Below, piece after piece: positions 3,701 to 30,084 of a stretch of 36,290 nucleotides of DNA (position 1 is its first letter; every line of letters begins with the position of its first letter). Made by a program: the position numbers and the translations under genes. Source of the DNA: Flavobacteriales bacterium (GTDB lineage Bacteria; Bacteroidota; Bacteroidia; NS11-12g; UBA955); contig CANKVN010000014.1 of NCBI GenBank assembly GCA_947487055.1, forward strand, positions 1 through 36,290. Direction: 5' to 3'. The notes below the pieces were generated by a model. It ran no database searches, had not been told where the DNA came from, and saw only the letters and a program-made list of their open reading frames with translations.

Positions 3701-4103
3701 TTCCTGAGTGATCATAAAAGTTAATTGTTCCTGTTGCTATTGTCCTTGAACTGCTATTTCCGCTTGCGAAAACTAATTTATGGGCATTAAAGGTTAAGGA
3801 ACCTAAAGACATATTTAATTCATGATTATTATTGAAATTTATGATATGATTACCATAACAATCAGGCCTATTTCTTGAATTGTTGGGCCCCCAACCGCTA
3901 TACCACCACTGTGAATTTGCAGTTCCAATTTGATTACAGGTATTGCTGCCATTTTCCCAGTTGTTGTTTGCTGCCACATCCCTCCAGTCAACTGTTACTT
4001 GGCAATAAACAGTTACTGTGCATGATAAAAATAAGAATAACGCCGCTGTTATTGACTTTTTTAAAATTGAGAATTTGGTGTTTAGAGTATGAGTTGCTAT
4101 CAT
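765..4103 (-). CDS. Large secreted protein with autotransporter-type beta-strand repeats and T9SS C-terminal sorting domain
   Basis: This 1112-residue protein has a signal peptide (hydrophobic AALFLFLSCTVTVYC, cleavage probably before QVTVDW). A long Gly/Asn/Ser/Thr-rich beta-helix-like body follows. It contains typical autotransporter-associated strand repeats such as GTLILTGANDYTGSTSVSAG. Toward the C-terminal third there are two similar blocks of about 77-78 residues (each with SGDIDAD and a TLTSGTMDIG/SLSSGTLDLG motif) plus part of a third. The last ~85 residues look like a type A Por/T9SS sorting domain (ending in GFYEITIQSASG and NHAQKMLINPK), with PLPVTWL preceding it. There is no C-terminal autotransporter barrel, so export is inferred to be through T9SS to the surface or medium. 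Its role is unknown; adhesin or matrix protein is possible. It is a paralog of the broken gene next to it. Confidence 0.85.
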   Translation of the reverse strand: MIATHTLNTKFSILKKSITAALFLFLSCTVTVYCQVTVDWRDVAANNNWENGSNTCNQIGTANSQWWYSGWGPNNSRNRPDCYGNHIINFNNNHELNMSLGSLTFNAHKLVFASGNSSSRTIATGTINFYDHSGTWPLIQNNSGTTHTINASIVGSSTHNIELSASSNSIIFGGTINNNGRTIQIYGNNSSVDATNRYIRLTGVVSGSGILNVSRFGVTKLNGTHSYTGETQIDNGELWIESNGSIASGSGIYLGNGSQLANVAKLWLSNSSGSTNFSNNITINDGNTTTRYLGGLNTSGTHTFSGNIINNSTGGLYLSAENSNGSTTFSGVISGAYPVIISGNGTVILSGTADNSYIGTTTVNSGLLVLNKTAGKKAVGNNLTISDGKTVRTDAANQLGIGTPALVTLQGSGTFNCNGFNQIIALASSSSDALVSLGNAVVTLDNTMTDTYAGKISGTGGVTKSNAGTLILTGANDYTGSTSVSAGTLQLNRSGGNTLPATNNVTVNGGTLKVSTNQTLNNLSVTSGTLVIDAGVTLTINGTYTGGGTITNNGSIVLNTTSFPGSSSTISSMNNLTINRSLGVTLDKDLTLTGTLTLTSGTMDIGNNTLTINSNSISRTSGDIDADNGTLVFTNSSILTVPASTIKSGTIKNLTINGAGIILSNGTTVSGALSLSSGTLDLGNTTLTYSGSNITRSSGDIDADAGNLEFANASAITLPASVIKTGTIANLTMNGAGGVSLGQNITISTSVALSSGILSLGNYNLTMNGTFSGSPGSTCYIKTDGSGSVTKNSMAVSSTPFTFPVGNSAFNKLTITNQTSAADNFGVRVIDEVYDNGTGASGATILSTKPRVKRTWQITKGTGSSNSSNGVDIGFYWESSHESSPAPVSYTVFHHNGTKWQEITTPSAAGTNFTVISGYKGSFSPFAVGDNVTPLPVTWLYNRCETTKSGTGIEWGTAEEKDVKTFTIEKSSSGQSFVPIGSIAGSGNSHTPRHYRFEDKNPNPEGAYYRIKQTDQTGEESYSKTCFANSIKNAPSAIISTTDNEVLITTGNADSETSRYVVYNTAGKIMLKGQFTGSQARIPIGHLMVGFYEITIQSASGNHAQKMLINPK

Positions 4104-4286: not shown

Positions 4287-5402
4287 TTATCTGGTTTTGG
4301 CGAACCGCAGGTTAAACTTCTGCCCAGCGGAAATAATTTTTAGGATATATATCCCTTCTGGTAAATGTGCTACACTCAGTTTTTGGGTGTTATCCGGTTT
4401 GCCTATGTCCATCAACATGCCTGTTGCATTAAAAATCTTGTATTCGGTGTTTTTCAGATTTTTCACTCCGGTTATCTGCAGGAAATCCATGCAGGGGTTG
4501 GGATAGATGCCTGGAGCCGGTCTAAAGGTGTTTTCGGCCTTGCAAACCTCACTGTAACTGAATTTGCCATCCCTGTCTATTTGCTTAATCCGGTAGTAGG
4601 CATTGCCAGCTACAGCCAAAGTGTCTTCGAAATAATATTGACTTGTCGTTGCACTGAACCCAGCTGCGGGTAATTCGCCAATGGGGGTAAATTCTTCTTC
4701 ACCAATGCTGCGTTCTATCAAAAACCGATCGGTATTGCTTTCCATGGCGGTACGCCAATTTAGCATTACATTTCCGTTGTTTTGGGATTTGCACTGAAAG
4801 GTTAGCCAGGTTAAAGGCAAAGGAACCACAGCATCACCCCCAATTACAAAAGGGGAGAAGCTGCCGGAATACCCTGTTTGGGTGTAAATATAGGGGGATG
4901 TACCGCTAACACTGCCTGTTCCTGCAGCAATTTCCCAAGCGCTCAGCGATGTATTATAATGATTGAGTGTGGGTGGGCTCAAGGTGCCAATGATTTCTGA
5001 AGATCGATACATGAATTTCATGTCTACGCCACCACCAATGTTGGGGTTGCTTTTGGTGATATCCCAGGTGCGGAAAACCAAATCCTTGTTGAACAATGTA
5101 CCCGTTAATCCACCGCGCCATGCGGAATCCAAAACTTTCACCGTGAACACATCCACCCCGGTTCCATTGTTGTTTTTAACATACAATTGGTTGTAAGAAG
5201 AGCGGCCAATATGGAAGGTGAAATTGGATCCGTTGCTTATGCTTGACTTGTAAACCCCGGTGCCATTGGTTCTTACATAGGAACTGGCAGAGCCGCCAGA
5301 TACATTGGAAAGCTGATCGTGCTCCAGGGTGAAGTTGCCAATGGTGATGATGCCATTGGTAAGGGTCAGTAAATCATCACAAATAAATTGGAATAGATAC
5401 AT
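4287..5402 (-). CDS. C-terminal part of a frameshifted T9SS beta-repeat protein
   Basis: This 371-residue ORF is the downstream half of a gene whose upstream half is the ORF at 5366-7696. It has no signal peptide, and its apparent ATG lies inside the overlap, so it is probably not a natural start. It continues the repeat pattern (LTLTNGIITIGNFTLEHDQL), then matches the downstream part of the 1112-residue paralog: a FTVKVLDSAWRG segment, the GYSGSFSPFVIGGD stretch, PLPLTWL, and a T9SS type A sorting domain (YPNPCMDFLQITG ... LPEGIYILKI). If joined with the upstream ORF the product would be about 1130 residues, close to the 1112-residue neighbour. Without the join it cannot be exported. Confidence 0.75.
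   Translation of the reverse strand: MYLFQFICDDLLTLTNGIITIGNFTLEHDQLSNVSGGSASSYVRTNGTGVYKSSISNGSNFTFHIGRSSYNQLYVKNNNGTGVDVFTVKVLDSAWRGGLTGTLFNKDLVFRTWDITKSNPNIGGGVDMKFMYRSSEIIGTLSPPTLNHYNTSLSAWEIAAGTGSVSGTSPYIYTQTGYSGSFSPFVIGGDAVVPLPLTWLTFQCKSQNNGNVMLNWRTAMESNTDRFLIERSIGEEEFTPIGELPAAGFSATTSQYYFEDTLAVAGNAYYRIKQIDRDGKFSYSEVCKAENTFRPAPGIYPNPCMDFLQITGVKNLKNTEYKIFNATGMLMDIGKPDNTQKLSVAHLPEGIYILKIISAGQKFNLRFAKTR
5366..5402 (-). other. Frameshift junction splitting the beta-repeat gene
   Basis: The upstream frame reads TMNGSGGICIYSNLFV and then hits a stop as VMIY*. The downstream frame overlaps here and resumes the repeat as DDLLTLTNGII. Adding one base near position 5379 (after the FV codons) would give ...NLFVDDLLTLTNG..., which matches the repeat pattern of the paralog. 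The overlap of the two ORFs is 37 bp. I see no slippery heptamer, so a mutation or a sequencing error is more likely than programmed frameshifting. Confidence 0.7.
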
Positions 5403-7696
5403 ATGCCCCCGCTACCGTTCATGGTCAGGGTGCTAATGTCGGCATTTACAAAAAGATTTGCCGGTATGGTTAAATAGGATGTATTGGTAAATTCAACGGT
5501 AGCAGTGGTTGCGTCTATGGTGCCCAAACTGCGGGAAATAGAGCTGCCGCCGTAAGTAAATGACTTGTTGAATAAATCAAAAATGCCTGACGTTAGGGTG
5601 ATGTTGCCGTTGAGGGTGCGGTTGGCGTGCAACTTAACCGTGGCTGTGCTGCTGCTGCAATTGATAATCAGGTTTTTTGGTCCGTTGGTGATGGGCCAGA
5701 ATACATCGGCTGTGTTCATGCCCGACGTAATCTCCAGGGTGCCATTACTGCCAAAGGCTATGCTGCCGCTGACAGAAAAATTGACGGATGAATTAATGCT
5801 TAACTTTCCATTAATCGTTAGGGTTTTTCCTGCAGCCACCACGAGCGTTCCACCGGTCATAATAATATTATCTACCACATCACTGCCCTGAAAATCCAGC
5901 ATGCCTGTGCCCGATACTGAAAAATCGGCATTATCATCGATCAGGTTGTCATTGTAGAATTCAATTTCACCACCGGAAATATCATAATTTAAACTTCCCA
6001 TGGTTCCGCTCGTGCCCACGGTTCCCCCGGCTACAGTGGTGGTGCCTGTGTATGTTTGTGCATTGAAAAGCGCAAGTTTGGTGGTGCCCGAACCATTCAT
6101 GGTGAGGTTGCCTTGCCCGGAGATGGTACTTTGGTAATTTATCCCTTTGTTGGCACCATTGATGGTGAGGGTTACACCGCTCCCGATGCTCGCGGTTCCG
6201 GCATCTGAAACGGCAGTTTCCTGCAGCGAACCGATTGTGGTATTGGCGTTCACCGTTAGGGAAGCGCCATTGGAAATAAATATGTCTGATCCGCTACCGA
6301 GAGAGCCATTGCTGCCCACAGTAATATTGCCTGCGGCAATGCGTGTATCGCCGGTGTAGCTGTTTATTGCGTCAAGGGTTAGGGTTCCTGCACCATCTTT
6401 GTAAATAGACGTGGTGGTTCCGTTGTTTGTGGCGCCTGCGCCGCTTATTATGCCTGAAATACTGGTGTTTTGTGAACCTCCAACAAATAGCACATTGGCT
6501 CCGCCGCTTACATTCCCGGAAAGCAAAATATTGCCGGAGGTTGCATTAATTCGGCTGCTTGAGCCAAGGCCTATGGGGCCGCTCCACCCGGATGAAGATG
6601 TGCTGCTATTGTTTAAAGCGCCTCCTGTGGATATGCCTAATCCATTTAATGTTAATGCCTCACTATTGGTTGGCGTAATTCCGTATAAATCCAGCACGCC
6701 GCCTGAACTTACAGTGGTGCCTGCGGCTGTTGTTCCCAAAGGTCCATTGGGCGAAGTGCCTGCTGCGTTTATTTTAAGTGTTGCATTTGCATTTATGGTG
6801 GTAAGCCCGGTGTAGCTGTTGTTTTGGCTTAGAATTACCGCAGAGCCTGCGCTGCCGCCAATATTTACGGCATTTGACTGGCTGGTGCTGTTGGATGTGC
6901 TTATCAGTCCGTCGGTTACCTTGCCCGGGGTGAAGGTGCCGCTGCTTAGGTAGTAGCCCAGGTTTGAACCGCCGGTGGAGAGGTGCGAAAACGCTTGTTT
7001 CCAGTAAATATCCGCATTTGCAGACCCGTTCCAGTCATCTTCCAGATAGAGGACAAAATGGCTGATATTGGCGCCTGCAGTGCCGTTCATGGTCAGGTTA
7101 TTCAACCTTTCATGAAATGTCCCATCTACCCATAATTCTACATTGCAATTTGTTTCCGATAAAACATGAATTTTGAACTGGTAGTCTCTTCGGGTGGTGC
7201 TTACGTTGTAATTTAAGGTGCTGTTTCCTGCATTGTGATTGACATACCAGGATGAGGTGACATCGTCAACCTGTATGTATAATCGCGAATTATCATGCCT
7301 GTTGGCCCAGCTGCTGGTAGCCGATGGTGATGCATTAAGGGACAGACCGATACAGCCCATCGCCGACGTAGCTGAAACCGTTATGGTTACCAGATCGCCT
7401 GGCTGCAGGTTGCGGTCGTTGCCAGTGTTGTCGCCGGCAGTTTTAAATTTGCGCCAGGCAACCACCTGCTTGGCTCCGGTAGATTTGGCATACATGCCCA
7501 ATTCGGTAGTGCCCGCGTTGGCAAATGCCCCGGCAGTGCCATCGGTAAATAAGGTGTAATAACCGGCGTTGCCCAAGGTGTATGTAACCTGGCCTTTAGC
7601 TGAATGAAATGCCATTCCCAACAACATCCAAAACCAAAAGAATTTGGATGGTGGTCTTTTAAGACAAAGCGCAATATTGGCTGCCCAATAGTACAT
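5366..7696 (-). CDS. N-terminal part of a frameshifted T9SS beta-repeat protein
   Basis: This 776-residue ORF has a signal peptide (FFWFWMLLGMAFHSAKG, then QVTYTLG) and a repeat-rich beta-helix-like body. It includes autotransporter-associated strand repeats such as GTLTLDAINSYTGDTRIAAG. The N-terminal ~230 residues are less repetitive and look like a lectin- or sugar-binding-like beta-sandwich (LYIQVDDVTSSWYVN, FKIHVLSETNCNVELWVDG), but I cannot assign a family. It stops inside a repeat because of the frameshift near 5379, so the T9SS sorting signal is lost from this ORF. If the frameshift is real, the product would reach the periplasm but lack its T9SS export signal. It lies downstream of the TonB receptor but has its own promoter-like dyad. 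Confidence 0.75.
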   Translation of the reverse strand: MYYWAANIALCLKRPPSKFFWFWMLLGMAFHSAKGQVTYTLGNAGYYTLFTDGTAGAFANAGTTELGMYAKSTGAKQVVAWRKFKTAGDNTGNDRNLQPGDLVTITVSATSAMGCIGLSLNASPSATSSWANRHDNSRLYIQVDDVTSSWYVNHNAGNSTLNYNVSTTRRDYQFKIHVLSETNCNVELWVDGTFHERLNNLTMNGTAGANISHFVLYLEDDWNGSANADIYWKQAFSHLSTGGSNLGYYLSSGTFTPGKVTDGLISTSNSTSQSNAVNIGGSAGSAVILSQNNSYTGLTTINANATLKINAAGTSPNGPLGTTAAGTTVSSGGVLDLYGITPTNSEALTLNGLGISTGGALNNSSTSSSGWSGPIGLGSSSRINATSGNILLSGNVSGGANVLFVGGSQNTSISGIISGAGATNNGTTTSIYKDGAGTLTLDAINSYTGDTRIAAGNITVGSNGSLGSGSDIFISNGASLTVNANTTIGSLQETAVSDAGTASIGSGVTLTINGANKGINYQSTISGQGNLTMNGSGTTKLALFNAQTYTGTTTVAGGTVGTSGTMGSLNYDISGGEIEFYNDNLIDDNADFSVSGTGMLDFQGSDVVDNIIMTGGTLVVAAGKTLTINGKLSINSSVNFSVSGSIAFGSNGTLEITSGMNTADVFWPITNGPKNLIINCSSSTATVKLHANRTLNGNITLTSGIFDLFNKSFTYGGSSISRSLGTIDATTATVEFTNTSYLTIPANLFVNADISTLTMNGSGGICIYSNLFVMIY

Positions 7697-7766: not shown

Positions 7767-10058
7767 TCAGAACTTAATGACAATGCCACCAAGCATGTGT
7801 CTGGTTGCTTGTGGATACAAAAACACTTCCTGGGTGATATCGCGGCTGCCGTAGGTGTACATGAATGTATATCCGTTCGATGAATACTTGCTGTTAAAAA
7901 GGTTCAGGATCTGCAACTGCGCGGATACTGTTGTTCCTTTGTTTACCATAAATGTTTTTTGCAGCCATAGCTCCGCAAACTGGTAAGGATTTAAACTGCG
8001 GTAGCGATCGCCGGTATTGTCCAGATATTGGCGGCTAACAAACTTGTGCAGGTAGCGGATGTTCCATTGCCCCGGCAACTGGTACTCCAGCCATGCTCCG
8101 GCGTTTACTGCCGGCGACATTGCAATCGGAACGTTGCGGAAAACACTGTCCTTATTCACGTAGGTAAAATAGTCGGGAATAACGTTGGTGATGCTTTTGA
8201 TTTTATTTTGGCTCAGGGCAATATTGCCGCCAATGGTAACATGCTTTATGGGACGAATTTCGAATCCTGCCTCAATCCCGCGGCGGAAACTGGCTTCTGC
8301 GTTGCGCCTTAGGGCAGACCCTACATCGTTCACTTCACCGGTCAAAACCAACTGGTTTTTGTACTTCATGTAGTACAGGTTCACGAACAGGTTCATTTTT
8401 TCGGTTTGTCTGCTCCATCCCAATTCCCAGTCTGTGAGTTTCTCCGGCTTTGGTATGTCTCCGGATTTGTGGTCTGTGAAATCGCTTCTGGATGGCTCTC
8501 GCTGGGCAATGCCCATGCTGCCGTAAAAGCTGTTTGCATTTATTTGGTACATCAGGCCTGCTTTTGGGTTGAAAAAGCCAAAGTTCCCATTGAAATCAAT
8601 GGCCCTGAGGTCGTTGTCTGTTCCTGTTCCCCGGTGGGATACCTGCCTGTATTGCAAATCAATCCAGGCGTGCAAACCGGTGGATACTTCATGGTTCAGC
8701 TTGGCAAAGATGGTGGCGTCTGTTTTGTTGCCTCTTCCATTGTAATAAGGGTGGTTTGGACTTGCGGAAGGCGCAGCACTCGCCCATATTACACGGCCAA
8801 AATGTTTGCCCTGGTACTGGTTCAGGCCGGCGCCCAGAATAAAGTTGAAACGCTGTGTGTGGTAGTTCCAGTTCACATTGGTGCCAAGCAATGTATTGTC
8901 CAGCCACCTTCTTCGCACGATGTCACTCCGGAAAAGGGTATCCGTGCCAACAACAGTTGGCGGCAGCAGGTAATTGGATAGTTTATCCTGTGGTTTAAAC
9001 TGCTCGAAAAATCCGAAACCGTGGGTGAAGTAACCGGTTGCATACAGCTGGCTGTTTTTGCCGGTGTTGATGTTCAGGTATAGGTGATGGTGGTTTTGGG
9101 TGTAATCATCAACTTCTGAAGCATAGTTGTAATAATTATAGCTGCGGGGGTTTGAATTGAATAAATTGATGGAATCTGCAGGGTTTCTATAGGTTACTCC
9201 AAGGTTGCGGTAATAATGGTTTAGCAGGTCGCTGGAACTGCCGAATAATTTTTCTTTGGGAACACCCCACCATGCCTGATAGGTTTGTTCTTTGCCACCA
9301 AAGGAAAGCCATTTTGCTGACCAGTTTTTATGTTGGTAGCCTACGGATGTCATGTAGGAGCGGAGTTTGCTGTTGGCCCTGTCTACAAAGCCATCGCTGT
9401 TGATGGCGGAGAGCTTCACATCCACGGTCCAGTGCTGGTTGATTAATCCTGTTCCTGCGGAAATGGAATGTCTTAGGGTATTGAAACTGCCACCGGAATT
9501 GGACACCAGGACGTAGGGATTGTTTGAACTGTAGGTTTGCATGTTTACCGATGCGCCAAATGCTCCTGCTCCGTTGGTGCTGGTTCCCGCGCCACGCTGT
9601 ACCTGAACGCTTGCAAGGCTGCTTGCCATGTCGGGCATGTTTACCCAAAATGTTCCGTGGCTTTCTGCATCGTTGATGGGCACACCGTTTATGGTTACAT
9701 TGGTGCGTGTGGCATCGCTTCCGCGCACACGAATACCGGTATATCCAATTCCTGCTCCTGCGTCGCTGGTGATGGTGATGCCGGGTTGAAACTGTAGCAA
9801 TACGGGCAAATCCCTTCCGGTGTTCTGTATTTGAATTTCGGCCCTGCCTACTGTGGTTTGGGCAATAGGCGCTGCGCTTCCGGCGCGGGTTGCCGATACC
9901 ATAATGGCTTCAATGCTCTTGGACGGGGTGGTGGTGTCTGCCTGTGGGCCAATGCTGTCCGCAAATGCAGTATTGCGGTTGTTTGGCAGTGGCTTGATAG
10001 CGGCTTGCAGCAGCAGTGTCAATGAGAAAAATACAGTGATAAAGATGGTTTTTTTCAT
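7767..10058 (-). CDS. TPP-riboswitch-controlled TonB-dependent outer-membrane receptor (probable thiamin importer)
   Basis: This is a 763-residue TonB-dependent receptor. A signal peptide (MKKTIFITVFFSLTLLLQAA) is followed by a plug domain (VSATRAGSAAPIAQTTVGRA, then GIRVRGSDATRTNVTINGVP and VQRGAGTSTNGAGAFGAS). A 22-strand-type barrel follows, ending in the terminal aromatic GGIVIKF. The ORF track starts at 10124, but that ATG lies inside the TPP riboswitch. The ATG at 10058 precedes the signal peptide, so I use it. Because TPP controls the leader, the substrate is inferred to be thiamin, its phosphates or a precursor. TonB receptors under THI elements are described in Bacteroidetes. No SusD partner or thiamin transporter gene is adjacent. 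Confidence 0.88.
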   Translation of the reverse strand: MKKTIFITVFFSLTLLLQAAIKPLPNNRNTAFADSIGPQADTTTPSKSIEAIMVSATRAGSAAPIAQTTVGRAEIQIQNTGRDLPVLLQFQPGITITSDAGAGIGYTGIRVRGSDATRTNVTINGVPINDAESHGTFWVNMPDMASSLASVQVQRGAGTSTNGAGAFGASVNMQTYSSNNPYVLVSNSGGSFNTLRHSISAGTGLINQHWTVDVKLSAINSDGFVDRANSKLRSYMTSVGYQHKNWSAKWLSFGGKEQTYQAWWGVPKEKLFGSSSDLLNHYYRNLGVTYRNPADSINLFNSNPRSYNYYNYASEVDDYTQNHHHLYLNINTGKNSQLYATGYFTHGFGFFEQFKPQDKLSNYLLPPTVVGTDTLFRSDIVRRRWLDNTLLGTNVNWNYHTQRFNFILGAGLNQYQGKHFGRVIWASAAPSASPNHPYYNGRGNKTDATIFAKLNHEVSTGLHAWIDLQYRQVSHRGTGTDNDLRAIDFNGNFGFFNPKAGLMYQINANSFYGSMGIAQREPSRSDFTDHKSGDIPKPEKLTDWELGWSRQTEKMNLFVNLYYMKYKNQLVLTGEVNDVGSALRRNAEASFRRGIEAGFEIRPIKHVTIGGNIALSQNKIKSITNVIPDYFTYVNKDSVFRNVPIAMSPAVNAGAWLEYQLPGQWNIRYLHKFVSRQYLDNTGDRYRSLNPYQFAELWLQKTFMVNKGTTVSAQLQILNLFNSKYSSNGYTFMYTYGSRDITQEVFLYPQATRHMLGGIVIKF

Positions 10059-10082
10059 GGATGCATATAGTTTTCTGCATCC
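10059..10082 (-). promoter_or_regulatory. Hairpin abutting the start codon (riboswitch expression platform)
   Basis: GGATGCA and TGCATCC form a perfect 7-bp stem around a 10-base loop. The 3' arm ends directly before the ATG at 10058. Its position suggests that it controls translation initiation, and that ligand binding upstream decides whether it forms. There is no U-tract, so transcription termination is less likely. Confidence 0.45.
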
Positions 10083-10105
10083 GAAGCACCCCTGATAAGG
10101 TGGGA

Positions 10106-10184
10106 CATTTCCCTGCGCAGGCATTATCCTGATCAGGTATTGCGGGTATTGTCTCAGCGTTCCTTTACGGAAGCACCCCGAATG
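10106..10184 (-). promoter_or_regulatory. TPP riboswitch (THI element)
   Basis: The - strand carries the hallmark TPP aptamer sequences in order: CGGGGTGC, a variable P3 hairpin (TTCCgtaaaGGAA), GCTGAGA, a TACCC strand, CCTGATCAGGATAATGCC and GCGCAGGGA. CATT (from 10184) and AATG (to 10106) can pair as P1. This matches the known consensus, so the call rests on direct sequence recognition. It lies directly downstream of a TACCTTTG promoter box and upstream of the TonB receptor, which it presumably represses when TPP is abundant. Confidence 0.95.
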
Positions 10185-10189
10185 CAGTA

Positions 10190-10222
10190 CAAAGGTAATT
10201 TAATTGACCAGATATTGGCCAA
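10190..10222 (-). promoter_or_regulatory. Promoter of the thiamin receptor transcript
   Basis: TTG (10220-10222), a 22-base spacer and an exact TACCTTTG (10190-10197) on the - strand match the Bacteroidota -33/-7 form. The expected start would be about 5 nt downstream, just where the riboswitch begins. A perfect palindrome ATTGGCCAAT (10214-10223) overlaps the -33 element. Confidence 0.55.
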
Positions 10223-22070: not shown

Positions 22071-22454
22071 TTATTTCTCAATTTTTAATTCGTGGATATT
22101 GAGCTTTGCTCCATTTCCGCGATAAAAAATGGTTGATTTATATTCCTCAGTGCCGCATTGCAGGGCTAACACCAAAAAATGCGCACCATTTTCGCTTTTG
22201 CCTTGCTGCATTTGTTTCACAACCGTGGGTTTGTGTGCATCAAAAAATCCCTGAAGGATCATTTTGGCCTGGCTTTTACTGTAAACACCTTCCTTGCCCG
22301 GGGTAGTGAGCTGCACGCTGGCACTGAAATGCCCGGCTATTTCGGTAGCATTTCCTGCGGAGAACAATTGCAGCAGTTTGTTGGCATCGTCCGCCGGTTT
22401 TGCAGAAAACGAGGAAAAAAGGGCTACAACAGCGGCGAAAATGGGTGGAAGCAT
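22071..22454 (-). CDS. DUF4783-like secreted protein
   Basis: This 127-residue protein has a short signal peptide (MLPPIFAAVVALFSSFSA) and then an NTF2-like alpha/beta domain (KLLQLFSAGNATEIAGHFSASVQLTTPG ... MILQGFFDAHKPTVV). It matches the DUF4783 family of Bacteroidota, which often precedes nadC. Function is unknown; ligand binding in the periplasm would fit the NTF2-like fold. It is the first gene of the nadC-trx-rlmD operon, and no convincing promoter was found upstream. Confidence 0.75.
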   Translation of the reverse strand: MLPPIFAAVVALFSSFSAKPADDANKLLQLFSAGNATEIAGHFSASVQLTTPGKEGVYSKSQAKMILQGFFDAHKPTVVKQMQQGKSENGAHFLVLALQCGTEEYKSTIFYRGNGAKLNIHELKIEK

Positions 22455-22552: not shown

Positions 22553-24736
22553 TTAAGGTTTGATGATTTTTACGGCAGCATGGGCATTGTTGCTGTGCAC
22601 ATAAAGCAAGTATGCGCCTGAAGCAAGGTTTGCGATGCTGAATTTGCCATTGAAACCGGAATTGCTGGTTTCCAATACACTGTTTCCGGTAATGTCTACC
22701 AAAACCATGTCCACTTTTTCTGTTCCGAAGGCAGATAAATCCACCTGAACCATATCTGTAGCCGGATTTGGCATGGCGTTTACCTGCAAAGTCTTTTTGC
22801 CGGTTTTGCGGGTTTGGTTGGTGTTGGTTTTAAAGCATTCTCCGGAGGCAATGCGGGTCATGTTGCTGAAATCGATATAGCAAGCCCAGTTGGGGTTGTC
22901 AATAAATGGATTTCTGTTGTTTTGTTTAAATGCGATATACTCCTGGCGGGCCATTTCGTAATTGTTTGGAGGGTATTTCTGGCTCCAGCGCTTCAATACA
23001 TTTTGGTCCTGCATGTCGGTGATGAACTGCACGGAGGTAGGCATTGTGAATGGCTTATCTGCCGTATGGTATGTGGCGCAGATGTAGAAACAAGCCCTCG
23101 ATACCATGCCTTTTACGCGGTTTGGTGGTTCGTAAGCCAGATTGCCGACGCTATCTGTGCCATATTTACCGTCCAGAAACTGGTATGTAACGGTTTTCAG
23201 ATTGTTGTAGGGAACATTGCTGCGCACGGCATTGGCTTTTATCTGGTGCACGGGGAACAAGGCATACAAATCACTGCCACAGGCGCTGTCGGTAGATGGA
23301 ATGCTCATCCAGCTCTTTGGATAGGAGTGTTCGCGGCTCAGGGTGTCCCAAATAATTGGGGGTTGAAATAGGTATTTGAAACCGCTGTAGGTGCAGGTCA
23401 GTACACGCCTGCTTCCGGTGGTATCATACGCAGCAAAGTCTTCCACCATGGTGGTTCCGTAGTTGCTGTAATACACCTGAAAATGAGGGCGGATTTTGGA
23501 TTTTAATTTGGATAAAAACTGGGTGTCTGTAGCGGTGATTCCTGAGTAGTAAGTTCCGGTATTCAAGCCGGGAGTGGTTACATTGTCCATTACAGATCCG
23601 CTTTGATAGTAGTTTATGTATTTATCGTATCCGTTCCAAGAAATAACCTTAACAAAGTACTTGGTATTGGCAACAATCTGGTCAATCCTGTAGTCGCCTG
23701 CAGGACCATTTTCAACAACCCTGGCTTTGCCTAAATAAGAGCCTTTTTCGTAAGCCACACCGTCTGTAGGTGTTTCGTTGATGCTGTCTTTGGAAACCAG
23801 GATGAGCAGGTTGTCTGCATTGTTGGTTCCGGCAGTTGCCTTGAGCTGCCAGGCACGAACGGTTGAAAAATTCAAGCTGGGGGATGCGTTTGGTTCGGTG
23901 GCAAAATTACCGCTGATGGCATAAATGTTTAGGCTGAAAACAGTATTGCCCACACCATCGTTGCTGTATATTTTCATGGTGCCCTTGATAGATCCGGCAG
24001 GGGCGCCTACAAGCTGCACCAGCATGTTCTTTTGGCTTTTAGACAAAATGGTATCCGGAACACCGCCGGCCTTGAAATAAGCAGCATCAGCACCACTAAA
24101 ACGCACAGAGTCAATAACCAGGGGGTCGCCAACTCCGTTGTTTTTAAGGGTTACAGGGTACAGTCCGGAATTTCCGGGCTTAAACATGCCGCCATTAATC
24201 ATTTGCGTAGTTCCATCATAAACGGCTATTTCAGGGCTCGCAGATGGGCCTGCAGGTTTAACCAATACGTCGTCCAGTACCACGTTGAAACCGGTAACCT
24301 TGGTGGTGTAAATAAACCTTACATAGCGGCTTCCTGATTTCAAACGCACCATGTGTTTGGTAATGGTCTGTGGCAAAGATTTGGTGTAATTACGCACGTT
24401 GGTCCAGGTGTTGCCATCTACGCTTTCGTCGATATTAAAAACCGAACCAGGGTCTGTACCGGGGTTGGTTCTAACCCAATATTCAACGGTATCTGCACGG
24501 CTTCCAAAAAATACCTGAAGGTATTCGCCGCTGCCATCAAGCCTCAGTGCCTGTGGAGCAGAGTTGTAGAAGCCTGCACTGGTATAGGTGAGGTTACCGG
24601 CCACTTTTGCCAGGTCATAACTCCAGCCGGTTGGTGGAGCCGTAACATTGCTCATGTCCCACGATGTGGGAAGTGTTGCTTGCCCAAACAAGGTGGTGCT
24701 TAGGAGGCAAATTAAAGAGAGTATGGTGTTTTTCAT
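22553..24736 (-). CDS. T9SS-exported endonuclease I family nuclease
   Basis: From the ATG at 24736 (MKNTILSLICLLSTTLFGQ, a clear signal peptide) the product has 727 residues; the ORF track's start at 24790 only adds sequence inside the upstream gene. After a beta-sandwich (about residues 20-170) and a choice-of-anchor-D-like domain (PEIAVYDGTTQMINGG...), an endonuclease I domain follows: REHSYPKSWM, DLYALFPVHQIKANAVRSN, KGMVSRACFYI and the FKQNNRNPFIDNP finish. The E-H pair and the N..RSN block of the beta-beta-alpha-metal active site remain, while the His of the usual DxHNL is replaced. A T9SS type A sorting domain ends it (MPNPATDMVQVDL...SGAYLLYVHS). It lies 4 bp downstream of a TonB receptor. 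Confidence 0.88.
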   Translation of the reverse strand: MKNTILSLICLLSTTLFGQATLPTSWDMSNVTAPPTGWSYDLAKVAGNLTYTSAGFYNSAPQALRLDGSGEYLQVFFGSRADTVEYWVRTNPGTDPGSVFNIDESVDGNTWTNVRNYTKSLPQTITKHMVRLKSGSRYVRFIYTTKVTGFNVVLDDVLVKPAGPSASPEIAVYDGTTQMINGGMFKPGNSGLYPVTLKNNGVGDPLVIDSVRFSGADAAYFKAGGVPDTILSKSQKNMLVQLVGAPAGSIKGTMKIYSNDGVGNTVFSLNIYAISGNFATEPNASPSLNFSTVRAWQLKATAGTNNADNLLILVSKDSINETPTDGVAYEKGSYLGKARVVENGPAGDYRIDQIVANTKYFVKVISWNGYDKYINYYQSGSVMDNVTTPGLNTGTYYSGITATDTQFLSKLKSKIRPHFQVYYSNYGTTMVEDFAAYDTTGSRRVLTCTYSGFKYLFQPPIIWDTLSREHSYPKSWMSIPSTDSACGSDLYALFPVHQIKANAVRSNVPYNNLKTVTYQFLDGKYGTDSVGNLAYEPPNRVKGMVSRACFYICATYHTADKPFTMPTSVQFITDMQDQNVLKRWSQKYPPNNYEMARQEYIAFKQNNRNPFIDNPNWACYIDFSNMTRIASGECFKTNTNQTRKTGKKTLQVNAMPNPATDMVQVDLSAFGTEKVDMVLVDITGNSVLETSNSGFNGKFSIANLASGAYLLYVHSNNAHAAVKIIKP

Positions 24737-24740
24737 TTGA

Positions 24741-27413
24741 TTAAAAAGTAATGCGAATACCGGTGGTGTAACGGAATCCGGGGGAAACAAATACTTCGAG
24801 GTTGGTGGGCCTGAAGGTATTGGAAGGGTTGTTGTCTATGCTGCGGTGCTGTGCATCGCTGATATAAAGGTTGTTGGTCACATTTTGGCAGTTCGCATAA
24901 ACCGAAATCTGACCCGATTTATAAGCGGTAAAAGTGTATCCGGCAGAAATATTCATGTACCAGTATGCTGGAATACGGAATGATTCCCGGCCTTTATAAG
25001 CCCCAACAAGGGATAAGGGATCAAAGTCTGCGTAGTGCTTCCAGAAATAGACATACTGGGCTGAGATGTAAGCTCCTTTTAGCAGTGAAGGCTCCCAGCG
25101 CACGCTCCAGGTCCACTGGCACTGTGCCGCGTCGCCCACGTGCACGCCGGAAGCATCGAAATCTACAAGCCCGACAGAATCTCCTGCATCATCGCGTATG
25201 ATACTTCGTGCACCGGATTTCCATTGCCAGTCGGCCAAACTCAATGCACTTTGAATGGTCATGCCATTTCCTGGTTTCAGAATACCTGCAAACTCTACAC
25301 CCATGTGTCTGGCTTTCATGCCGTTGATGTTGTATGAAAACAAATTGCCATCAGGGTCGCGGTAGGTGGGCAGGAAATTTGCAGGGCGGTTTTGCCAGTA
25401 AGTATAGTATACGTTTGCATCCAAACTGAATATGCGGCTTTTATAACCTGCACCGCCTTCAATGGCATATATTTTCTCGTTTTTGGCGTCTTTTACTTCA
25501 ACGTTGTTGTTGTCAAATATATTGTTGAAACGGGTTGGTTTGTTCAAATAACCCACATTTCCAAACAAATTTACATGCCTGCTGATGTTGCGGTTTACCC
25601 CAGTTTTAAGGGTTACACCGGGTCTTCTTACCCAATCGGAAACCTTTGGCTGGCTGTCAGCTGTGAGCCTAAAGAAATCAATCCTGCGGTAGAAGGATTG
25701 TGTGGTACTGGCATTCACGAAAGCTGAAGTCCTGCCTTTGGAATATTCCAGTTCAGCAAACCCACCTATCCAGCGAACCAACCCATCGTTATTGAAACGG
25801 AACTTGTCGCCTTTATGGTAGAGCAGGTCTTTTTTATTGGGGTCCAGTTCACCATTGTCGGGGATGAAATAATCACCACCCAGCAAATCATAAACCTCTC
25901 GGTAATGCTGTGCCCTGTAGGTGCGAAGGTCCAGTCCTCCGGTGAAGGTGAAATTTTTGTTGATTTTGTGGTTGAGCGTGCTCAATGCACCAAACCATTT
26001 GTGGTTGTTTACGCTGCGGTGCAATATGCCGTATGACCTAAGCTCGGTAGCGCTGTATGCAGGGTCGGGATTGGGCACAAATGCAGACCCGGTGGTATTG
26101 GCCCACCATGAGCCTTGCATGTTGAACTGGCCGTAGGTTCTGAGCTGGCTGATGCTGTTGGCTTGCGAACCACCACCTTTGCCGACAGACATATAGGCGA
26201 CCGTGCTGATCAGCGTTTTACTGCTGGGTTTCCAGTCGTGTTTCAGGTAAACCTGGGGTTTGTGAAATTCGTTTACCCGTTCACTTTTGCGGTTGTTCGA
26301 TCCCCAGATGGTATCGCCTACGTCGTTCAACCGGGCCTCATTAAGCCATCCCCAGTGCTGGTTATATTTTCTGCCCTGATTAACGGGCATATTGCCCACC
26401 AGGGTGTCCATATTCAGTTTCATGGCAAGGCCACGGTCATACAAGCTTAACCTGGCCCTAAAGCTGCGCTGTCCATGGCTTTGTGGAGCGCCAACCGCAG
26501 TCAAGGAAAGGGTGTGTTTTTTGCCAAATTTCTTTTCAAGGCGGCCGTAGTAGCTGTACATGTCATCATACAATGCATCTACATAACCGGTGCTGCTTCT
26601 TTTGGTGAAGCTGAAGATGGCGCCCCAGTTTCCTTTTAGCCTGCCAGTATTGATGGTTGCTGAATATTTTTGGTAGCGGGAATCACCAAATTCTGCGTTT
26701 GCAGAAGCTTTAAATTGGTTGGATACACCGCGGGTAATGATGTTCATGGTGCCGCCAACTGCGGGATTGGCGATGCGGCTGCTGCCCAGCCCTCGCTGCA
26801 CCTGTGTGAGTGCGGTCACTTCGCTTAATCCGAACCAGTTGCTCCAGTAAACCTCGCCATTTTCCATGTCGTTCACAGGAATTCCGTCTATCATCACGGC
26901 GATGTTGCGTTGGTTGAAACCGCGAATGGTAATGCGAGCATCACCGGCGCCACCGCCTTGCTGGGTGGCATAAACGCCTGGTGTGTTGTTCAGCAGCATG
27001 GGCATGTCTGCGCTACCGAGTTGCTCGCTGATGGTTTTGCCGTTCAGGTTGCTGTAGGCTATGGGAGTTCTTCTGTCTTTGGCAAGGGAAGCGGTAATTT
27101 GAACCGCTTGCACATCCGTGCTGAGGTTGTCCAGCCTGAAAACGACATTTGGAATAAGGCTGCGGTCGGCAAGGATTTGAATGGTATCGCTGCTGAAGCC
27201 TTCCAGTGTTGCAACCAGTGTATGGTTGCCACCAACCAGCAGCATGCTGAAAGAACCATCGGCTCCCGAAACTGCGGAAACCGCCCTGCTGCTAATAACC
27301 GCTTTTGAGATTCCTTCGCCGGTTAAGGCATCTGTAACCTTACCCACAATCTTTGTTTGGGCTTGCAGCAGACCTGTTCCGCTGAGCAGGGCTATGAGAA
27401 AGGCGGTCCTCAT
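24741..27413 (-). CDS. TonB-dependent outer-membrane receptor with carboxypeptidase-regulatory-like N-domain
   Basis: This 890-residue receptor has a signal peptide (MRTAFLIALLSGTGLLQA) and an N-terminal CarboxypepD-regulatory-like domain (IVGKVTDALTGEGISKAVI ... GFSSDTIQI). The plug has GDARITIRGFNQRNIAVMIDGIP and a VQRGLGSSRIANPAVGG segment, and the barrel ends in TTGIRITF. There is no SusD partner, so it is not a standard polysaccharide locus. Upstream it overlaps the lamin-tail protein gene by ATGA, and downstream the nuclease follows after 4 bp. I infer uptake of nuclease products such as oligonucleotides, nucleotides or phosphorylated fragments, but no motif proves the substrate. Confidence 0.88.
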   Translation of the reverse strand: MRTAFLIALLSGTGLLQAQTKIVGKVTDALTGEGISKAVISSRAVSAVSGADGSFSMLLVGGNHTLVATLEGFSSDTIQILADRSLIPNVVFRLDNLSTDVQAVQITASLAKDRRTPIAYSNLNGKTISEQLGSADMPMLLNNTPGVYATQQGGGAGDARITIRGFNQRNIAVMIDGIPVNDMENGEVYWSNWFGLSEVTALTQVQRGLGSSRIANPAVGGTMNIITRGVSNQFKASANAEFGDSRYQKYSATINTGRLKGNWGAIFSFTKRSSTGYVDALYDDMYSYYGRLEKKFGKKHTLSLTAVGAPQSHGQRSFRARLSLYDRGLAMKLNMDTLVGNMPVNQGRKYNQHWGWLNEARLNDVGDTIWGSNNRKSERVNEFHKPQVYLKHDWKPSSKTLISTVAYMSVGKGGGSQANSISQLRTYGQFNMQGSWWANTTGSAFVPNPDPAYSATELRSYGILHRSVNNHKWFGALSTLNHKINKNFTFTGGLDLRTYRAQHYREVYDLLGGDYFIPDNGELDPNKKDLLYHKGDKFRFNNDGLVRWIGGFAELEYSKGRTSAFVNASTTQSFYRRIDFFRLTADSQPKVSDWVRRPGVTLKTGVNRNISRHVNLFGNVGYLNKPTRFNNIFDNNNVEVKDAKNEKIYAIEGGAGYKSRIFSLDANVYYTYWQNRPANFLPTYRDPDGNLFSYNINGMKARHMGVEFAGILKPGNGMTIQSALSLADWQWKSGARSIIRDDAGDSVGLVDFDASGVHVGDAAQCQWTWSVRWEPSLLKGAYISAQYVYFWKHYADFDPLSLVGAYKGRESFRIPAYWYMNISAGYTFTAYKSGQISVYANCQNVTNNLYISDAQHRSIDNNPSNTFRPTNLEVFVSPGFRYTTGIRITF

Positions 27414-28381
27414 TGTTTTATCAGCCTGGCGGAATAGTTTTCCTGCCCTGCACCGATTGCCTGAAGGTGGTAAACACCGCTGCTCAAAGATGCCGTAGAG
27501 ATGGTTGCAATGGCAAATCCATTGGGATATTGCATTTCAAAAGGCAATTGAACCTTGCGGCCTTGCATATCCATGGCAATGATACTTATTACAGCCCCCT
27601 GGAAAAATGCCTTAACCTCGCTGGTGGCAGGGTTAGGAAACAATTGCACCTGTTGTGCTGCAATTTCTTGATTGCGGGCTGCGAATTTGTTACAATCGCA
27701 AATATGGGTGCGCAGCGAATCGAAAGTGTTCACGGGGTATACCTCCCATTCCTTGCGTGGATTGAAGTTTGCCGGATTGGCGGAAACGCCTTGCTTGATT
27801 CCGTGTTTGCGGATAAGGGTTTTATCGATGGTGCACCAAAGGCCCAGGCCAGTATTGTTTGGGAACGAATCACTCCAGCCAATGGTTCTGCTTGGGTTTG
27901 ATGGCAACTGAGGTTGCTGCCCGATTTTGCCAAAGATGTCAATAGGTGACCATTTGTTGGTGGCCGTGTTCAGTTTGTCCAGGCTCATGGCATCGTCTCC
28001 GTTGAAACTCATGGAGAATGAAGTGTTGTAATCTTTGGATAAGAACAAATCTGCTTTAACCCTCAGGTTATAGGTAACGGGAGTATCCTGGCCTGTCTGG
28101 GTGGTGTCGCGGCGGTCAATGACCAATACCTTGGCTTCGTTGCTGCCAATGGTGCCGGAAAGCAAATCGCTGAATTGGCTGGTCCACACCGCTGATCCGT
28201 TTTGCCAGCGGGTAACCCGATAATTGCTCAGGTCGATGGTAGCGGTTCCCGGGTTGTAAATTTCAAGGGCTTTGTTGTTTCTGGTGCCCTCAACATATTC
28301 GGATATGAAGAGTTCATTGCATTGTGCACCCAGTTTTACCATAGAAAGGATGCATCCAAGAGCGAATAAGGTCTTTTTCAT
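27410..28381 (-). CDS. Lamin-tail-domain (LTD) protein with T9SS sorting domain
   Basis: This 323-residue protein has a signal peptide (KKTLFALGCILSMVKLGAQ) and an N-terminal lamin-tail-like domain (LFISEYVEGTRNNKALEIYNPGTATIDLSNYRVTRW, then VLVIDRRDTTQ). LTD domains are often joined to or near extracellular nucleases in bacteria. The tail resembles a T9SS sorting domain (QLFPNPATSEVKAFF ... SLSSGVYHLQAIG). It is the first gene of the operon with the TonB receptor and the endonuclease, overlapping the receptor by 4 bp. I infer a surface protein that binds substrate or anchors the nuclease system. The divergent nucleotidase gene starts about 50 bp away. Confidence 0.8.
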   Translation of the reverse strand: MKKTLFALGCILSMVKLGAQCNELFISEYVEGTRNNKALEIYNPGTATIDLSNYRVTRWQNGSAVWTSQFSDLLSGTIGSNEAKVLVIDRRDTTQTGQDTPVTYNLRVKADLFLSKDYNTSFSMSFNGDDAMSLDKLNTATNKWSPIDIFGKIGQQPQLPSNPSRTIGWSDSFPNNTGLGLWCTIDKTLIRKHGIKQGVSANPANFNPRKEWEVYPVNTFDSLRTHICDCNKFAARNQEIAAQQVQLFPNPATSEVKAFFQGAVISIIAMDMQGRKVQLPFEMQYPNGFAIATISTASLSSGVYHLQAIGAGQENYSARLIKQ

Positions 28382-28412
28382 TTGGAAGTATGTAGCAAAT
28401 TTCGTATATTTA
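28381..28412 (+). promoter_or_regulatory. Possible promoter of the split 5'-nucleotidase genes
   Basis: TTTG (28381-28384), a 20-base spacer and TATATTTA (28405-28412, one base off TAnnTTTG) precede the ATG at 28434. On the other strand, GAAATTTG in the same ~50-bp gap may serve the LTD operon, so the two units could share a control region. Confidence 0.4.
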
Positions 28413-28433
28413 GGTTATCAAATTGCTAAGTTA

Positions 28434-29249
28434 ATGTATCATTTTTCACAGAATTGCAGAAAGTGTGTTAATTTGTATGTTGTGAGGTGTGGTTTTCTTT
28501 TGATGTTGAGTGTGTTGGCCCTGTCCTGCGGGGTTAAAAATTTGCATTACAAAGCACTTTGGCCATTGAACACGGCTGCAGATATTCGTCCCGACAGCAC
28601 CATGTCCCGCTTTCTGAAACCCTACAGGGATACACTTCTGCAGTTTACCACCACCGTTGTCGGCAAAACAGATACGGGATATTTTCCCGAACGGCCTTCC
28701 GGAAACCTGGGAAATTTGTGTGCAGATTTGACATTTGCTTATGCCGATTCACTCCTTAAAAAACGGATAGGCCTTCCGCTGGATGCGGCTGTACTTAACC
28801 TTGGCGGCCTCAGAACTGCGTTGCCATCCGGGTCCATAACCGTTGGAAACCTCTACGAGGTGATGCCTTTTGAAAATACCGAAGTTCTCTTAAAAATTAG
28901 CGGCGGCGCCATGGATAGTTTGCTCAGGCATATCGTTAAGCGTGGAGGTGAGCCTGTTTCAGGATTAAAAATCGAGGTAAATGAAAAGCAGGAATTTATC
29001 GCCTGGATAGGAAATAACCGTTTTGACAGCCGCCGTGATTACTGGATAGCTACCTCGGATTACCTGATGAATGGTGGTGATGGTTACAACATGTTTAGGG
29101 GAGCGTTGGAAATGATCGCTACAGAAAAAACAATGCGTGGTATTTTTACGGAGGGTATTCGTGCTGAAACTGCAAAATATGGGATAGTTCGGAAAAGAAC
29201 AGAAAGGAGGATTGTATATGCCAACGAGGCGGCAATTCCTAAGAAATAG
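28434..29249 (+). CDS. 5'-nucleotidase C-terminal domain lipoprotein (UshA-type, split)
   Basis: From the ATG at 28434 the protein has 271 residues. A lipobox (LSVLALSC) suggests a lipid-anchored protein. The rest is the substrate-specificity domain of 5'-nucleotidases (5_nucleotid_C): SGNLGNLCADLTFAYADSL, AVLNLGGLRTALPSG, VGNLYEVMPFENTEV and MNGGDGYNMF. The metal-binding phosphatase domain is missing here and is encoded by the next gene. The ORF track start at 28272 lies inside the opposite-strand gene and has no signal peptide, so I reject it. It overlaps the next gene by 32 bp. Confidence 0.82.
   Translation: MYHFSQNCRKCVNLYVVRCGFLLMLSVLALSCGVKNLHYKALWPLNTAADIRPDSTMSRFLKPYRDTLLQFTTTVVGKTDTGYFPERPSGNLGNLCADLTFAYADSLLKKRIGLPLDAAVLNLGGLRTALPSGSITVGNLYEVMPFENTEVLLKISGGAMDSLLRHIVKRGGEPVSGLKIEVNEKQEFIAWIGNNRFDSRRDYWIATSDYLMNGGDGYNMFRGALEMIATEKTMRGIFTEGIRAETAKYGIVRKRTERRIVYANEAAIPKK
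29203..29210 (+). promoter_or_regulatory. Strong Shine-Dalgarno before the metallophosphatase gene
   Basis: AAAGGAGG lies 7 bases before the ATG at 29218, inside the end of the upstream gene. It is the clearest Shine-Dalgarno in the window; most other starts here show none. It fixes the ATG start against the TTG at 29212. Confidence 0.6.
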
Positions 29250-30084
29250 CGCATGGCTGGCAGGCGGCTTGCTGCTTACCCCGGAGGCACTAATGGCTAA
29301 TGACAAAACATCATCCCTGATGATTTTGCATACCAATGATTTTCACAGCCGGCTGGATCCATTTCCGGATAACCATCCCAAATATCCGGGTCAGGGCGGC
29401 ATTGCAAAGCTGAAAACCTTGATGGACGAAGTTCGCAGCCAAAACGACTATTGTCTGCTGCTGGACAGCGGGGATGTGTTTCAGGGTACACCCTATTTCA
29501 ACAGGTTTGGCGGTGTGCCGGAGTTTACCTGGATGAACATGGCCGGCTATGAAGCGTCTACCCTGGGCAACCACGATTTCGATATGGGAATGGAGCACCT
29601 TGCAGCGTTGATTCAAAACCACGCCAAATTTCCGTTCCTTAACTGCAACTATAATGTAGAGGCTACACCGTTGAAGGATCTCATCAAAAAACGGCTGGTG
29701 GTGCGCAAGGGGAAACTCAAGATTGGCATCACCGGAGTAGGGGTAAACCCCGAGGGCTTGATTCCCCAACATTTGTGCAAAGGCCTTTTGTACCAGGATC
29801 CTGTGGCGAAGGTGCAGGAGCAGGCTGACATCCTGCGCAAGCGCGAAGGCTGTGATGTGGTGATTGTGCTGTCGCACCTGGGGCATGAGTATCCCAGCAA
29901 CCAAATCAGTGATGTGAAACTGGCAGCAGCAACGCACGGAATCAACGTCATTTTGGGGGCACACACGCATACCTTTCTGGAGGCACCACTGGGTTTAACC
30001 AATAAAATGGGAGAGACCGTGCTTGTGAATCAGGCGGGCTGGGCTGGATTGAGGCTGGGCCGCATTCAGCTGGATTTTAAATAG
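29218..30084 (+). CDS. Tat-exported 5'-nucleotidase/metallophosphatase domain protein (UshA N-terminal type)
   Basis: This 288-residue calcineurin-like phosphoesterase begins with a twin-arginine signal (PTRRQFLRNSAWLAGG). The metal-site motifs are complete and in order: LHTNDFHSR, LLLDSGDVFQGTPYF, STLGNHDFDMG, VLSHLGHEY and LGAHTHT. It is the catalytic N-terminal half of a 5'-nucleotidase, expected to hydrolyse nucleotides to nucleosides and phosphate in the periplasm. Its C-terminal partner domain is the gene directly before it, so the usual domain order is reversed in the operon. I use the ATG at 29218 behind the Shine-Dalgarno. The stop is 3 bp from the sucA stop on the other strand. Confidence 0.88.
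   Translation: MPTRRQFLRNSAWLAGGLLLTPEALMANDKTSSLMILHTNDFHSRLDPFPDNHPKYPGQGGIAKLKTLMDEVRSQNDYCLLLDSGDVFQGTPYFNRFGGVPEFTWMNMAGYEASTLGNHDFDMGMEHLAALIQNHAKFPFLNCNYNVEATPLKDLIKKRLVVRKGKLKIGITGVGVNPEGLIPQHLCKGLLYQDPVAKVQEQADILRKREGCDVVIVLSHLGHEYPSNQISDVKLAAATHGINVILGAHTHTFLEAPLGLTNKMGETVLVNQAGWAGLRLGRIQLDFK

Follow-up and report, generated by a model that had tools for sequence, protein, structure and literature searches.

Genes of the operon and the divergent nucleotidase pair

We analysed a 36,290-nucleotide stretch of Flavobacteriales bacterium DNA (hereafter, the window; contig CANKVN010000014.1 of assembly GCA_947487055.1), in which a reverse-strand operon encodes a Lamin Tail Domain (LTD) protein (positions 27410–28381), a TonB-dependent receptor of 890 amino acids (24741–27413) and an endonuclease I protein predicted to be exported by the type IX secretion system (T9SS; 22553–24736). 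Two genes on the forward strand, NucC (28482–29249) and NucN (29218–30084), encode the two halves of a 5'-nucleotidase and are separated from the operon by a divergent intergenic region (28382–28481). The LTD and receptor genes are joined by a 4-bp ATGA overlap (27410–27413), and exactly 4 bp (24737–24740) separate the receptor and endonuclease genes. This gene set had been proposed in an initial annotation of the window; all of the genes were present, their domains were confirmed by Pfam, and the overlap and the gap were exact. Because the sole Endonuclease_1 copy of the whole assembly lies inside this operon and the arrangement recurs in relatives, we regard it as more than a chance association.

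The LTD protein contains a signal peptide, an LTD domain at residues 20–133 (41.6 bits; PF00932 cut-off, 34.3) and a T9SS type A sorting domain at residues 247–318 (Por_Secre_tail, 27.4 bits, above the cut-off). Its AlphaFold model, with a mean pLDDT of only 68, matched the globular domain of lamin A/C (1ifr) with a TMt of 0.61. The endonuclease I protein scored 86.9 bits for Endonuclease_1 (PF04231; cut-off, 25) and 42.7 bits for the T9SS tail, and displayed a distant match to Vibrio endonuclease I (1oup/1ouo). Residues E469-H470, N502, R505 and N507 and the motif RNPFxDxP were conserved in an alignment of 13 relatives; on general knowledge of the Endonuclease I family, we take the EH, N, RxN and RNP motifs to be catalytic. 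Profile scans of the same genome recovered TonB_C and SprA (SprA_N, 541.6 bits), and both tailed proteins accordingly qualify as T9SS substrates.

The receptor consists of a CarbopepD_reg-like domain (CarbopepD_reg_2 fell below the cut-off), a Plug (49.7 bits) and a barrel. Pfam, the structural model (pLDDT 79) and Foldseek agreed on a Plug within a β-barrel, that is, a TonB-dependent receptor. As the initial annotation had stated, the receptor lacks a SusD partner: no SusD family match was obtained among the operon genes scanned with Pfam. A SusCD-type polysaccharide utilization locus (PUL) and, at the sequence level, a SusD-like role of the LTD protein were rejected on this basis. The best NCBIfam match of the receptor, the vitamin B12 receptor, was likewise rejected, as its score was far below the equivalog cut-off (TIGR01779, 51.2 of 599.7 bits) and neither a cobalamin nor a TPP riboswitch was found ahead of the operon in the window or in eight relatives. 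Rfam and tRNA scans detected no element at the operon. Elsewhere in the window, a TPP riboswitch (10093–10190, reverse strand) lies where a different TonB receptor gene (7767–10124) begins; this gene therefore likely encodes a thiamine receptor and can be used as an in-window control.

In the divergent pair, the gene for the C-terminal domain precedes that for the N-terminal domain. NucC scored 77.2 bits for 5_nucleotid_C, with 3ivd and 2z1a as solved relatives, and NucN, the metallophosphatase half, scored 66.9 bits for Metallophos and matched the 5'-nucleotidase 2z1a (E 8e-30). Both UshA-type domains are thus present as two genes, and the equivalog of single-chain UshA (NF007109, 600 bits) was reached by neither NucN (106 bits) nor NucC (52 bits). 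The signal of NucN is Tat-like (TRRQFL). Although the NucC reading frame opens at 28434, comparison with genus members indicated that its start is probably a GTG at ~28482; with this start, a lipobox (LSVLALSC|G) is present and NucC looks like a separate lipoprotein. The intergenic region is therefore probably ~100 bp rather than 52 bp; the divergence described initially was correct, and the distance of ~50 bp probably was not. A block of 31–36 bp around positions 28399–28430 was near-identical in six aligned genus members. This block, in the gap where a shared control motif had been suspected, fits back-to-back promoters, although joint control is unproven.

Linkage of LTD protein, receptor and nuclease in relatives

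We searched 58 relatives for the receptor and retrieved its neighbourhoods. The LTD-receptor-endonuclease operon with divergent NucC and NucN was retained in every member of this family with a sufficiently long contig, and the wider surroundings (sucA, nadC and a thioredoxin-like gene) were shuffled around it. Endonuclease_1 was present in 24/24 family genomes with a receptor orthologue (one of these orthologues being a C-terminal fragment), compared with 4/12 genomes without one (Fisher's test, P = 1.6e-5). Named relatives with the receptor extend to Lewinella cohaerens, Saprospiraceae, Chitinophagales and Zunongwangia.

To cover a wider range, the receptor was surveyed across the phylum (105/395 genomes at E ≤ 1e-80; 80 neighbourhoods inspected) and the class (95/395 genomes from 42 genera at E ≤ 1e-230; 60 neighbourhoods inspected, covering about two-thirds of these genomes). 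Neighbouring genes were open reading frame calls labelled with profiles from the window and from loci L066 and L070, with Pfam spot checks. Because the survey model was built on the receptor sequence only, neighbours were not selected for. An LTD gene was located directly upstream of 60 of the 142 receptors in the two surveys, and a nuclease gene occurred among the next three same-strand genes for 56/60 LTD-linked receptors, compared with 4/~81 receptors without LTD (P = 1.7e-30, not corrected for kinship). The directly adjacent gene encoded Endonuclease_1 in 39 and a PLD protein in 8 of the 60 cases. Co-occurrence in relatives, on which the initial annotation had made its interpretation depend, was accordingly found in both the family and the class. 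One of the four LTD-linked receptors without a downstream nuclease (L208) is at a contig end; the others (L205, L210 and L239) are considered below.

When 135 receptors were placed on a tree, those linked to LTD fell into one clade (65 rows, support 99). The nuclease in this clade is mostly Endonuclease_1 and elsewhere a two-HKD PLD protein with a T9SS tail, and ~5 changes between the two were counted on the tree. These enzymes have unrelated folds. Both HKD motifs were kept in 11/11 full-length PLD partners, and a DUF5689-like segment was confirmed by Pfam in the three PLD partners scanned. As the LTD protein and the receptor stay while the nuclease is exchanged between unrelated folds in one slot, nuclease action is what is kept. 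That unrelated enzymes with the same chemistry occupy this slot suggests nucleic acid as the substrate they share, although the PLD partners might act on lipids instead. In neighbouring clades, a type I phosphodiesterase/nucleotide pyrophosphatase followed 18/82 receptors (L145, L174 and others). Receptors of the LTD clade were basic (median pI 8.70, 2.8 above the locus median), in contrast to sister receptors (median pI 5.25, 0.4 below the locus median), a difference that favours an anionic ligand.

The position of the nucleotidase was less constant. In nine genomes of another family (loci L119, L198, L203, L206, L207, L209, L211, L214 and L233), NucC and NucN are collinear and follow the endonuclease, whereas they are divergent in the window's family; the link therefore exists in at least two arrangements. 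The membership of the nucleotidase, as initially proposed, held for these two families but not as a general part, and on gene neighbourhoods the pair is an accessory of the cassette. The operon is present twice in one genus member (G003; L034 and L037), each time with NucC beside it.

A candidate nucleic-acid acquisition cassette

The best reading of the gene content and neighbourhoods is, in our judgement, that the cassette serves nucleic-acid acquisition or scavenging, with a probability of roughly 0.7. T9SS would carry the endonuclease I and LTD proteins to the cell surface, where the nuclease would cut extracellular DNA or RNA; the LTD protein would partner the receptor at the surface, and the receptor, powered by TonB, would pass the resulting anionic oligonucleotides or nucleotides on to the periplasm. 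In the window's family, NucN and the lipoprotein NucC would then remove phosphate, after which phosphate and nucleosides would enter the cell. We infer the substrate, the transport step, the role of the LTD protein and the regulation by phosphate; as far as the sequence tells, the imported material may be fragments, nucleotides or long DNA. The pathway in the initial annotation resembled this one; its core agrees with the co-occurrence and exchange of the nuclease, and its nucleotidase step does not generalize.

Several observations weigh against this reading. The solved receptors nearest in sequence import siderophores or pyrroloquinoline quinone (PQQ). The LTD link is found on essentially one clade, so that it represents one ancestral event long kept and not many gains. 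Among the exceptions noted above, L205 and L210 have a helicase in the nuclease slot, and in L239 the PLD gene precedes LTD instead of following the receptor. NucC and NucN are not adjacent to the operon in most relatives. Most LTD proteins in relatives are acidic (median pI 4.93), a property that speaks against simple binding of DNA; although the LTD protein of the window is itself basic (pI 8.71), a role as a basic DNA-binding protein was not supported for this reason. The SusD-like substrate binder of the initial annotation is one of three candidate roles for the LTD protein, beside a lid and a scaffold for the nuclease; a structural lid, as XusB forms on XusA, is no less likely than DNA binding. 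In L205 and L210, the helicase is PIF1/UvrD-like and is accompanied by an aroA-like gene.

The cassette can be compared with several known systems. Like SusCD-type PULs, it combines a surface enzyme, a surface partner and a TonB receptor in one operon, with periplasmic enzymes nearby; it differs in that SusD is absent, the partner is a T9SS-exported LTD protein and the enzyme is a nuclease. The locus works like a PUL, yet is not a SusCD locus. In Flavobacterium johnsoniae, the extracellular nucleases EndA1 and EndA2 are fusions of fn3, LTD and Endonuclease_1 that are induced on phosphate depletion (log2 4.7 and 4.1, respectively; PMC8115612), and their fused domains connect LTD functionally with the Endonuclease_1 family. 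From these nucleases, we infer a possible phosphate control of the cassette; against this, they adjoin no receptor. EndA1 and EndA2 are listed as orphans, whereas the cassette encodes LTD, receptor and nuclease individually within a single operon. The Pus/PusCD system of the same species is also a TonB-linked organic phosphorus locus, but includes a SusD-like protein, PusD (PMC8115612). The lid-type transporters XusAB, BtuBG and SusCD (PMC13142918) likewise provide a TonB receptor with its own partner protein at the surface; however, these partners are lipoproteins of other folds and their substrates are siderophores, B12 and glycans, so that the parallel of an LTD protein over a barrel is conceptual. 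LTD domains also occur with extracellular nucleases in ExeM (PMC6085458) and in the DNA-degradation loci of Ca. Izemoplasma (PMC8289736), the latter with nucleotidases nearby, but there LTD and nuclease form one large protein and no TonB receptor was described alongside. We found no description of LTD, receptor and nuclease as a unit in the literature searched, which did not extend to subscription papers and preprints.

The cassette is widespread in Bacteroidota, and dissolved DNA represents a major pool of phosphorus, which gives such a function nutritional relevance. The passage of nucleic acids or their pieces through the outer membrane of Bacteroidota matters for both nutrition and natural transformation; for the latter, the only genetic screen recovered a barrel protein distantly related, by domain architecture, to this receptor. 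Since about a quarter of the sampled class genomes carry the receptor, it offers a direct target in culturable strains such as Lewinella; in Lewinella cohaerens (L067), the cassette comprises LTD, receptor and PLD genes.

Alternative functions

An improbable alternative is that the receptor imports an iron chelate, a cofactor or another small ligand, which the nuclease merely releases or accompanies. The top PDB profile match of the receptor was XusA (9gbc), a xenosiderophore receptor (PMC13142918), and its best fold matches were PqqU, YncD, Fiu and FecA. Moreover, loci with DUF4876 and a TonB receptor belong to the iron-dependent stimulon in P. gingivalis and B. thetaiotaomicron (PMC10434189), and BT_1938 (4q1z) was among the weak fold matches of the LTD model. 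However, it is a nuclease that persists as partner through the ~5 swaps, and a nucleotide pyrophosphatase is retained in neighbouring clades. No iron-, heme- or B12-specific gene was recognised beside the receptor, and both the B12-receptor score and the riboswitch scans described above argue against this alternative.

We consider it equally unlikely that the cassette mainly takes up long DNA to be used in natural transformation; the LTD protein and receptor would then bring the DNA across the outer membrane independently of a type IV pilus, and the nuclease would trim it. In Riemerella anatipestifer, natural transformation requires both a CarboxypepD_reg barrel (RA0C_RS04915) and the DUF5689 protein that partners it (RA0C_RS04920; PMC8459023), and tonBA and tonBB mutants are also transformation-impaired, although the authors ascribed the tonBB effect to iron (PMC8383284). 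Barrels of the Riemerella architecture (L070, L125, L189 and L185) scored 220–260 bits on the window-receptor profile, compared with <60 bits for most other receptors and 110 bits for the thiamine-type receptor of the window. The barrel and DUF5689 pairs of L070, L125 and L189 adjoin an EEP nuclease, the L070 stretch also holds Endonuclease_1 and two window-type receptors, and ComEC is present in the window's genome. On the other hand, ComEC is widespread, transforming DNA should not be expected to survive a nuclease at the surface, and the Riemerella gene was matched to the L070-type barrels by domain architecture only. The Riemerella pair resembles the cassette in combining a distantly related CarboxypepD_reg barrel and a partner protein at the surface, in an architecture found beside nucleases elsewhere, but its partner is DUF5689 rather than LTD. 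The window receptor and the Riemerella-type barrels fell into separate clades (support 100, ~20% identity), and orthology of the two pairs was ruled out by this tree and by the LTD partner.

Between nucleic-acid scavenging and transformation, a broader connection may be tentatively drawn, which we consider possible but doubtful: the LTD-linked, nucleotide pyrophosphatase-linked and DUF5689-linked receptors could form a superfamily that, powered by TonB and independent of pili, carries DNA or long oligonucleotides across the outer membrane of Bacteroidota, serving feeding here and transformation in the Riemerella-type branch.

The least probable alternative, in which the nuclease turns over DNA in biofilms or defends the cell against DNA from outside and shares no more than its expression with the LTD-receptor pair, is in line with orphan extracellular nucleases such as EndA1 and EndA2 (PMC8115612), but is at odds with the tight gene junctions and with a receptor-nuclease linkage long kept across ~40 genera.

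Further DUF5689 arrangements were observed. In the window's own genome, DUF5689 was confined to one large T9SS protein and was not paired with a receptor; this protein of ~1077 amino acids (contig C19, L079) contains a DUF5689/OB-like segment, and a peptidase-like gene lies downstream of its gene. In one family member that lacks the window operon (G008:C57:77773-84797), a receptor occurs with DUF5689, and Endonuclease_1 is divergent ~2.4 kb away. The Zunongwangia locus (L070:7043-20943) unites two window-type receptors, Endonuclease_1, the EEP nuclease and the barrel with DUF5689 pair in one stretch.

Within the window, a DUF4783 gene (22071–22454, reverse strand), found mainly in the window's genus, lies between the endonuclease gene and nadC. 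PATR repeats occur in two large proteins (765–4103 and 5366–7696, reverse strand), which adjoin a T9SS-tailed protein (4287–5402).

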